From Syntrophales bacterium (GTDB taxonomy: Bacteria; Desulfobacterota; Syntrophia; Syntrophales; UBA8958): a stretch of 64,000 bases of DNA. The notes under the pieces are model-generated. The model was not told the DNA's origin. It did no database searches and saw only the letters and a program-made list of their open reading frames with translations. Location: the NCBI GenBank assembly GCA_026417625.1, contig JAOACW010000003.1, positions 1 to 64,000 on the forward strand, written 5' to 3'. Shown here one piece after another: positions 37,217 through 39,863 of the stretch (its first letter is position 1; every line of letters begins with the position of its first letter). Both the position numbers and the translations under genes were made by a program.

Positions 37217-37600
37217 TTATTTTTTTTCAATGTATCTCATTTTCGGTGGTATCTTATAAATCTCTTCTACTCTGTGGTGGCGTCGAAAACCCAGGGCCTC
37301 TCTCGTTACAATTAAATAGTAGTAGCGTAGTTTGGCGTATTCCCTCTGCTTATTGTATACTTGTATATCGCGATTAATCGCTTCGATTATCTTTCCCCTC
37401 AATTCTTTTACTTCTAGATCGCTATTCGCATGGATTTCTTCTAGCTTCTCGAGAGCTAGTTTTCTTTCCTTGATAATTTCTTCAATTTGTTTGAGCTTTA
37501 AAAGGGCTTCGTCTAATTTTGAACCTGTACGGCCGAGGACCTCCGCTTTTTCTTTTAGAATTTCTTCCTGGATTTTCTCCTCTGGAGACTTGTCTGTCAT
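37217..37600 (-). CDS. Small coiled-coil protein of unknown function
   Basis: 127 residues, highly charged, almost entirely predicted helix. A coiled coil is suggested for residues 8-65 by leucine and isoleucine repeats ([20 protein letters not shown]). The C-terminus has an unusual aromatic and basic patch ([20 protein letters not shown]). No signal peptide or known domain. It is the first gene of the pcm operon and is transcribed away from the permuted phosphoglycerate mutase. A real gene by its tight 2-bp spacing to pcm. Confidence 0.65.
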
Positions 37601-37682: not shown

Positions 37683-37728
37683 ATCTGTTGTATTGCAAAA
37701 TAAAACTTTGAGGAATCTTTGGTGGGTT

Positions 37729-39312
37729 ATGGTGTCTTTTCACTCTAAGTGTGCAATGGCTGACGCAGTTAAAAGAGCTTACATGATGGGAGAAGAAGAT
37801 GAAACGCTTGAGCCGCGGGTGCTCGTAGGGGATTCAGGTCCTTTAGGACGAGTTAGGGATGGTGACGCAGTTATTTTTTATAATATAAGAGGGGAGAGGG
37901 AGATAGAACTAACAAGGTGTTTTGTGGATAGAAATTTCGATGTTTTCCCCATTGTCAAGTTTAATGATCTACTATTCGCTACAATGATAGAGTATGCACC
38001 AGAGCTGCCAGTAGAGGTTATTTTCCCAAGCGAAGGGCCAATCTGTGAAACACTATGTGAAGTTTTGTCCATTGCCGGCAAGAGGCAGGTCAAGATCACG
38101 GAAGCCGAAAAGGCTATTCACATAGGTTATTTTTTTAATGGTAAGAGATGGGAACATTTTGAGGGAGAGGATCGAATTATAGTTCCTACGAGGAAGGATG
38201 TGGTTCTTTTCGATGAGGCACCAGAAATGTCTATTCATGGAATAATTGAGAAAACGTTAGGGGTCCTCGAAGATTCTATTTACGACTTTATTGTGGTTAA
38301 CTTTCCGAATGTGGATGTAGTAGGACACGTGGAGAACAGAGAAGCGATTTTGAAGGCTGTAGAAGCGGTTGATAAAGCGACAGGTACACTTGTCGAAGCG
38401 GCAAAGCAACAGGGAGTATGGGTAGTCATAACAGCTGATCACGGTACCGTGGAAAAATGGTTATATCCCGATGGAAGTGTTGACACGGGACACACGGATA
38501 GTCCTGTACCGTTTATCATTGTCCCGCCCTCTGGTATTGTAGATGTCATACCTGAAGGGTCTCTGATTGATGTGGCTCCAACGGTTCTAAGCTTGTTTGG
38601 TCTTGAGAAGCCCCGCTTAATGACGGGTAGGTCGCTTATTAGAGGCTCCTACGGATGTTCTGGTTTTAAGTGTATTTTGATGATAATACTCGATGGATGG
38701 GGATATCGGAAAGGGAAAAAGGGTAATCTCATTGCATCCGCCCACACTCCTGTTATGGATCATCTCTTGAACAGCTATCCTTTTTCACTGCTTAAGGCAG
38801 CGGGCGAATATGTGGGACTACCCCCTGGCACTGTAGGAAATTCTGAGGCTGGTCATCTCCACTTGGGTGCGGGGAGAGTGATTCTATCGGACCGCCTCAA
38901 AATTGACAGATCGGTGGAGCGGGGTCATATTTACAAGAATGAAACCCTCAAGAGGATAATGGCTGCTGTAAAGGAAAGAGCATCGGCGCTACATCTTATG
39001 GGTATAGTTTCTTTTTTCAGTTCCCATGGTTCACTTAAACATCTTTATGCTCTGTTGGAAATGGCAAAACAGGAGGGTATTGAAAAAGTGTACATCCATG
39101 CTATGCTGGGAAGGAGGGGAGAGCTGCCAGAGAGTGGGACGCGGTACATCCGTGATCTGGAAATGTTTTGCAAAAAGATAGGTGTGGGTAAAGTAGTGTC
39201 CGTGATTGGTCGCTACTGGTCATTAGACAGGGAGGAGAATTGGGATCGTATTGAAAAGACGTACAGAATGTTAGTCTATGGTGAGGGTTTTCCCGTTTTT
39301 GAATCAAATTAA
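37729..39312 (+). CDS. gpmI: Circularly permuted cofactor-independent phosphoglycerate mutase
   Basis: Predicted to interconvert 3- and 2-phosphoglycerate. Normal iPGM order is reversed: residues 9-304 match the usual C-terminal part (DGDAVIFYNIRGERE, EAEKAIHIGYFFNG, NFPNVDVVGH, ITADHGT, TGHT, MTGRSLI), then a linker of about 8 residues, then residues 314-524 match the usual N-terminal part (MIILDGWGY, VGNSEAGH, GRYWSLDREENWDR). Metal and nucleophile residues are kept: D196, H200, D237, H238, H255, D322, S372. Substrate residues R54, R57, K128, H433, R495 and R501 are also kept, but the usual DGRD reads GRRG (461-464). Length 527 is close to normal iPGM. Start is ATG 37729 or 37756; an open frame continues upstream but overlaps the divergent gene and lacks homology. 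Confidence 0.88.
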   Translation: MVSFHSKCAMADAVKRAYMMGEEDETLEPRVLVGDSGPLGRVRDGDAVIFYNIRGEREIELTRCFVDRNFDVFPIVKFNDLLFATMIEYAPELPVEVIFPSEGPICETLCEVLSIAGKRQVKITEAEKAIHIGYFFNGKRWEHFEGEDRIIVPTRKDVVLFDEAPEMSIHGIIEKTLGVLEDSIYDFIVVNFPNVDVVGHVENREAILKAVEAVDKATGTLVEAAKQQGVWVVITADHGTVEKWLYPDGSVDTGHTDSPVPFIIVPPSGIVDVIPEGSLIDVAPTVLSLFGLEKPRLMTGRSLIRGSYGCSGFKCILMIILDGWGYRKGKKGNLIASAHTPVMDHLLNSYPFSLLKAAGEYVGLPPGTVGNSEAGHLHLGAGRVILSDRLKIDRSVERGHIYKNETLKRIMAAVKERASALHLMGIVSFFSSHGSLKHLYALLEMAKQEGIEKVYIHAMLGRRGELPESGTRYIRDLEMFCKKIGVGKVVSVIGRYWSLDREENWDRIEKTYRMLVYGEGFPVFESN

Positions 39313-39332: not shown

Positions 39333-39863
39333 GTGGAGTTTAAAGTTGGAAAAGCGGTGATTTCACTTGTTCAGGGTGATATTACCAAAGAGGAGACAGA
39401 GGCAATTGTAAACGCGGCAAATTCCAGCCTTGCTGTTGGTGGGGGGGTAGATGGAGCCATCCATCGCGCTGGCGGGCCGGCTATCATGGAGGAATGCAGA
39501 AAGATTGGAGGTTGTCCTACGGGACAGGCTGTTATTACCACTGGGGGGAATTTAAAAGCGCGTTACGTGATACATGCCGTTGGTCCCGTTTATCAAGGGG
39601 GGAACAAGGGGGAAGCAGAGCTTTTGAGTAGTGCCTATCGCTCGAGTTTAAAAATTGCGCAGGAGAGGAACCTTAAGAGCGTTGCATTTCCTGCTATTAG
39701 CACAGGAGCTTATGGCTATCCCGTGGATGAGGCAGCCCGGATCGCTCTTAAGACAGTTATTGAGTTTCTTAGGGAACACGAAGGTATTGAGCTGGTCAGG
39801 TTTGTTCTGTTTGATAAAAAGACGTACGATGTTTTCGTTTCAGAACTCTCAAAGTTGATTTGA
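39333..39863 (+). CDS. Macro domain protein (YmdB-like ADP-ribosyl/O-acetyl-ADP-ribose hydrolase)
   Basis: Single macro domain, 176 residues, expected to bind ADP-ribose and hydrolyse O-acetyl-ADP-ribose or mono-ADP-ribosyl groups. The catalytic-loop region VNAANSSLAVGGGVDGAIHRAGG and the second loop PAISTGAYGYP are intact. Start is GTG 39333 with AGGGG eleven bases upstream. It lies 20 bp after the permuted phosphoglycerate mutase and overlaps the 3' end of the convergent endonuclease III-like gene by 15 bp. Confidence 0.93.
   Translation: MEFKVGKAVISLVQGDITKEETEAIVNAANSSLAVGGGVDGAIHRAGGPAIMEECRKIGGCPTGQAVITTGGNLKARYVIHAVGPVYQGGNKGEAELLSSAYRSSLKIAQERNLKSVAFPAISTGAYGYPVDEAARIALKTVIEFLREHEGIELVRFVLFDKKTYDVFVSELSKLI

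Follow-up and report, generated by a model that had tools for sequence, protein, structure and literature searches.

The locus and its genes

Within the window (the whole stretch of 64,000 nucleotides that was analysed), a single unbroken frame on the forward strand encoded a protein related to the phosphoglycerate mutase (PGM) known as iPGM, with the parts of the enzyme in permuted order (Table 1). The surrounding open frame was free of stops over 605 amino acids, and the alternative start codon matched the conserved 'MSxAVR' start region in the alignment of homologues. The first transferase segment carried the motif RGER, which holds the equivalents of R261 and R264. The major part of the phosphatase domain held TEAEKAIH (the K336 equivalent), NVDVVGH, TADHGT and DTGHT (metal ligands) and MTGRSLI, the old C-terminus.

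The macrodomain gene was located 3' of the permuted gene and in the same orientation, an arrangement that the window shared with 30 further loci of its group (31 in total), often with a 4-nt overlap, and the overlap suggests co-translation of the two genes. In 33 loci, the permuted gene had the 127-aa protein encoded upstream of it, and NlpD and Pcm were also among the neighbours in the window's group.

Table 1. Coordinates of the permuted iPGM gene, its parts and its neighbours in the window
Feature	Position	Strand	Details
Permuted iPGM gene	37729..39312	+	527 aa plus stop; possible alternative start ATG 37756
Transferase domain, C-terminal half, now N-terminal	37765..38037	+	Residues 13-103; 1EJJ 219 to hinge-2 region near 310
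Phosphatase domain, major part	38038..38640	+	Residues 104-304; PF01676 at residues 104-294
Linker RGSYGCSGF, old C- to old N-terminus	38641..38667	+	Residues 305-313
Phosphatase domain, minor part	38668..38886	+	Residues 314-386; 1EJJ 4-76; D12 (D322) metal ligand, Ser62 (S372) nucleophile
Ser372, equivalent of catalytic Ser62	38842..38844	+	Invariant in permuted and canonical proteins
Transferase domain, N-terminal half, now C-terminal	38887..39291	+	Residues 387-521; 1EJJ 77-211; H123, R153, R185, R191
SFFSSHG motif (canonical SDGGVHS around H123)	39010..39030	+	SSHG in every tabulated permuted protein of both subfamilies
LGRRGE motif, replacing canonical LDGRD(T/V)	39106..39123	+	D151 to G, G152 to R, R153 kept, D154 to G, 155 to E
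Macrodomain protein, next gene	39333..39863	+	O-acetyl-ADP-ribose deacetylase model NF001664 over cut-off
Divergent 127-aa protein, upstream of the permuted gene	37217-37600	-	No Pfam or NCBIfam match

Domain order, cut point and predicted fold

The protein was compared with the PDB by phmmer, using 1EJJ, the structure of the B. stearothermophilus iPGM, as the numbering reference. Residues 314-522 corresponded to 1EJJ 4-211 (196 bits, the only gap being at the last residue), and residues 13-304 corresponded to 1EJJ 219-509 (191 bits). The NCBIfam model TIGR01307 matched in two stretches with 480 bits (cut-off 331), and the archaeal-type PGM model TIGR00306 yielded 51 bits, below its cut-off of 320. 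Both PF01676 and PF06415 matched, demonstrating homology across the phosphatase and the transferase domains. The Pfam iPGM_N profile was split, with profile positions 121-216 found at 37720-37998 and positions 1-130 at 38902-39291, while the Metalloenzyme (phosphatase) match covered residues 104-294 and its N-terminal part sat in the second half of the protein.

The preliminary description had read the gene as a clean circular permutation of iPGM, and the two colinear blocks swapped relative to 1EJJ, together with the split iPGM_N match, confirmed this reading; the motifs it quoted were located in the permuted order as stated. Its claim that nothing was duplicated or missing held for the duplication, but the loop 212-218 of 1EJJ (seven residues) and the extreme ends were absent. 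The short linker that it placed between the old termini was recovered as well. The linker varies within the permuted family and mostly comprises 9-13 residues; one protein (genome G003, loci L030/L044) carried a linker of 59 residues between the old termini.

The position assigned to the new termini, an interdomain loop, had to be revised, as the iPGM_N domain is cut in its middle. Hinge-2 residues of the C. elegans iPGM are A333 and A336 (PMC8113725). These correspond to about 310-312 in 1EJJ, because the numbering of the metal and serine residues is offset by 23-24 between the two enzymes (PMC5382265). With the new ends at 1EJJ 211-219, the cut therefore falls within the transferase domain and not at the hinge; it divides this domain mid-way, about 95 residues before hinge 2. 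The nesting of the domains is thereby inverted, from the canonical phosphatase(transferase)phosphatase to transferase(phosphatase)transferase.

An AlphaFold2 model of the permuted protein, built with 28 permuted sequences, reached a pLDDT of 85.2 and a pTM of 0.82. The halves were matched to known structures separately because Foldseek depends on chain order and the permuted whole could not be scored at once. The larger half of the model matched 1o98/1ejj (E = 2e-18, rmsd 3.1, 300 columns). The smaller half, modelled alone with lower confidence (pLDDT 76), matched the S. aureus iPGM 4nwj with a TM score of 0.78 and an rmsd of 2.8, and the B. anthracis iPGM with a TM score of 0.77. Both halves are thus predicted to retain the common iPGM fold, in agreement with the earlier proposal that this fold allows the permutation.

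Distribution and origin of the permuted family

When 84,980 species genomes were scanned, 391 candidate relatives emerged, a lower bound for the size of the family, and the best 80 were kept. All of the best 80 of the 391 public loci were permuted (80/80), the DHG motif of the phosphatase preceding the nucleophile motif NSExGH in each; the canonical order, with the transferase inserted in the phosphatase, was found neither in these loci nor in the window protein. The best 80 spanned about ten bacterial phyla, with record titles naming Syntrophales, other Deltaproteobacteria, Aminicenantes, Chloroflexota, Armatimonadota, WOR-3, Stahlbacteria, Neomarinimicrobiota, Zixibacteria, Eisenbacteria and Polyangiaceae. 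One title (L139, Clostridiales bacterium A05DMB-I-28) looks mislabelled, as the genome (G094) falls within the Aminicenantes order and the protein groups there.

The permuted gene was present in 31 of the 60 genomes of the window's group (family and order), and a full-length, colinear permuted homologue was found in 28/60 with the window's own counted, the relatives showing 56-66% identity. In the Aminicenantes order, 55 of 94 genomes carried the permuted gene and none carried canonical gpmI. The gene was detected in 11 of 247 genomes sampled from the window's phylum.

The window belongs to a 32-contig draft genome, in which an assembly or binning artefact, namely an inversion or rearrangement within this one gene, could have created the permuted order. 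The preliminary description had named such a rearrangement as a threat to its reading and had proposed a search for homologues sharing the order. Dozens of independent assemblies from several phyla, however, displayed the identical order and cut point at 51-66% identity and with a variable linker. Since the 28 colinear homologues of the window's group and the 80/80 best public contigs, all independent, agree, chance and assembly error were ruled out, and an artefact can be practically dismissed. A mobile or viral origin was also rejected. Phage and plasmid matches were below 60% identity, the best of them (39-43%, in two pieces) looked like ordinary gpmI, and no permuted relative was confirmed in the viral contigs searched.

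A class-wide search of Anaerolineae recovered six more permuted proteins (loci L172-L177 in genomes G488, G419, G456, G552, G457 and G507) with 40-45% identity and the identical cut, here termed subfamily B. These proteins retained SSHG and RGER and carried DGRST where subfamily A has GRRGE, so that the position of D154 is occupied by Ser. Subfamilies A and B formed one clade against 32 canonical proteins (UFBoot 100, SH-aLRT 99), and trees from each half alone gave the same grouping (SH-aLRT 98), in a limited canonical sample that could miss an unpermuted sister with SSHG/RGER/GRRGE. Because all permuted proteins fall in one clade, a single origin suffices, and the simplest account is one permutation event, D154 having been lost and the H123 loop altered on that branch or close to it. 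The trees also contained a divergent iPGM of canonical order (L033, genome G058) on a very long branch, with the motifs IIRDGWG and QGSSEVGH; its genome also has gpmA and a permuted gene.

The most likely route would be a tandem duplication of canonical gpmI followed by trimming. The old termini would have been fused through a short linker, and the loop 1EJJ 212-218 within the transferase domain would have become the site of the new ends. This would leave a contiguous phosphatase domain and a transferase domain built from both chain ends.

Active site, function and related enzymes

Ninety-five permuted proteins, re-ordered in silico for alignment only, were compared with 29 canonical proteins. 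The metal ligands D12, D403, H407, D444, H445 and H462 and the nucleophile S62 were present in 95/95 permuted proteins and in 34/34 of a second set, and H123, R153, R185, R191, R261, R264 and K336 were invariant in 95/95. Nine substrate contacts are described for iPGM, namely S62, H123, R153, D154, R185, R191, R261, R264 and K336 (PMC3886921). The permuted proteins keep eight of the nine and lose D154 alone, which is replaced by G in 95/95 subfamily A-type proteins and by Ser in 6/6 of subfamily B, where T rather than E follows. Further changes found in 95/95 were 155 to E, D151 to G, G152 to R, G121-V122 to SS, S124 to G, D263 to E and A265 to E. The canonical proteins kept D151, D154 and D263 (29/29), and D154 was present in all 32 canonical proteins tabulated. 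Asp154 is said to act in the acid-base catalysis of iPGM.

From the invariant residues, we infer that a two-metal site would activate Ser372, which would accept a phosphoryl group donated by a small phosphorylated carboxylate and pass it back or on. The substrate would be held by R54, R57, K128, H433, R463, R495 and R501. The acceptor pocket would be unlike that of every canonical iPGM examined, with Asp154 gone and SSHG, RGER and GRRGE or DGRS present. The sequence comparisons point to an ancient, inside-out enzyme of single origin and with a changed acceptor pocket, rather probably a phosphoserine phosphomutase or phosphotransferase acting on a relative of 3-phosphoglycerate, or else an auxiliary PGM; the phosphoserine chemistry, the acceptor change and the route of origin are the inferred parts of this reading. 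A bolder version, to which we give not quite an even chance, is that the inside-out iPGM fold left PGM for another phosphomutase or phosphotransferase reaction and founded a new enzyme family in about ten phyla, topology and active site having changed together at its origin.

Another reading would be that the loss of Asp154 halts the return of the phosphoryl group, so that the phosphoserine is hydrolysed and the enzyme acts as a phosphatase only. Membership of the fold in the alkaline phosphatase superfamily, the fully intact phosphatase half and the location of the substitutions in the transferase active site are all consistent with a phosphatase. Yet both transferase halves, H123 and the Arg/Lys anchors are conserved over wide divergence, beyond what a plain phosphatase needs, and we consider this explanation improbable.

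The genome content was examined for the role of the permuted gene in the cell. In the window genome, canonical gpmI was not found and no gpmA scored above the cut-off, whereas two archaeal-type PGM homologues were present, one of the PRK04135 class and one of the TIGR02535 ('proposed homoserine kinase') class; this answered the earlier question of a second gpmI or gpmA. Among the 60 group genomes, PRK04135-type genes co-occurred with canonical gpmI in 0/11 and with gpmA in 2/11 (combined p = 4.7e-8), while they were found in 17/31 genomes with and 17/29 without the permuted gene (OR 0.86, p = 0.8); the corresponding counts in the Aminicenantes order were 49/55 and 34/39 (p = 1), all in MAG-based tests that ignore the relatedness of the genomes. 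Canonical gpmI/gpmA and PRK04135-type genes thus exclude each other across genomes, and the permuted gene is indifferent. Such exclusion is expected of interchangeable enzymes, and its absence for the permuted gene makes an interchangeable housekeeping PGM role unlikely.

Five genomes (G012, G018, G019, G047 and G049) carried the permuted gene and no other standard PGM type, compared to two such genomes without the permuted gene. The difference was not significant, and the permuted gene as sole PGM was therefore rejected. Another genome (G044) had the permuted gene and three archaeal-type genes. In one relative of the window genome (G042, 94% complete), no PGM was found in a search for canonical, permuted, gpmA and archaeal-type genes.

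The eight retained contacts make plain PGM activity possible, and they count against a changed function, as does the invariant Glu beside the lost Asp in subfamily A, which could possibly replace it. As a true auxiliary PGM, the enzyme would tolerate its changes, with Glu155 in the place of Asp154, and interconvert 3-PG and 2-PG. The invariant metal ligands and 3-PG contacts, the score of 480 bits against the equivalog model of iPGM and the five relatives lacking another standard PGM type favour this role, and redundant PGMs are frequent in bacteria (PMC2964296). It is harder to reconcile with D154, present in all canonical proteins tabulated and lost in every tabulated permuted one, with the Ser and Thr of subfamily B where Glu would be needed, and with other PGMs not being displaced as they are between gpmA or canonical gpmI and the archaeal type. 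We regard an auxiliary PGM as a tentative alternative that deserves weight but is rather doubtful. The preliminary description had called the gene a phosphoglycerate mutase; the iPGM family match stands, by descent and architecture, but PGM activity is not claimed here, given the loss of D154 and the lack of PGM displacement.

The conserved neighbours were searched for a clue to the substrate, and none identified it. In other phyla, the neighbouring genes included ABC transporters, a histidine phosphatase, a glycosyltransferase, HAD phosphatases and a uridine-kinase/phosphoribulokinase-like gene, and in several Anaerolineae genomes the subfamily B gene adjoined HAD phosphatases or the kinase-like gene. 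Assigning a function from the neighbourhood was rejected, as no theme was shared across phyla. The macrodomain, HAD phosphatase and kinase-like neighbours suggest small phosphorylated metabolites.

TIGR01307 is the NCBI model for naming iPGMs. Because the permuted protein exceeds its cut-off, as the family does, automatic naming would probably give an ordinary iPGM. Hundreds of genomes are probably labelled as having a PGM for a protein without one of the nine substrate contacts, and automatic annotation probably hides the rearrangement and overstates the function of the enzyme. The permuted enzyme is a natural test of domain nesting as a constraint on the opening and closing of iPGM. With it, syntrophic and other uncultured anaerobes may harbour an unrecognised reaction.

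Natural circular permutations are rare among enzymes of central metabolism, and to our knowledge no other one inverts the nesting of a two-domain enzyme. The preliminary description knew of no described example, and no description of a permuted iPGM was found in the open-access literature. A TBLASTN-based survey of bacterial PGMs contains neither 'permut' nor 'domain order' and lists three archaeal-type iPGMs for S. aciditrophicus (PMC2964296), and a comparison of 338 reviewed iPGMs does not mention permutation (PMC12077085).

Among known systems, the closest is GpmI/GpmM (TIGR01307; 1EJJ, 1O98, 4NWJ), which shares both domains at about 40-45% identity per half, the metal ligands, Ser62, H123, R153, R185, R191, R261, R264 and K336. 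The permuted enzyme differs from it in the cut inside the transferase domain, the inverted nesting, the absence of D154 and the presence of SSHG, RGER and GRRGE or DGRS. The apgM archaeal-type PGMs (TIGR00306; PRK04135, TIGR02535), two of which are encoded in the window genome, belong to the same superfamily, but they are unpermuted proteins of about 400 aa with weak local similarity and are not orthologous to the permuted iPGM. PhpG (CMP-5'-phosphonoformate--3-phosphoglycerate phosphonoformyl transferase, NF038358), a member of the PGM superfamily that NCBIfam names for a non-PGM reaction, offers a precedent for a changed function; it is apgM-type and unpermuted, and the likeness is one of precedent. 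Eukaryotic glutathione synthetase is another natural circular permutation (PMC2876114), an unrelated enzyme that, like the permuted iPGM, kept its fold and active site.
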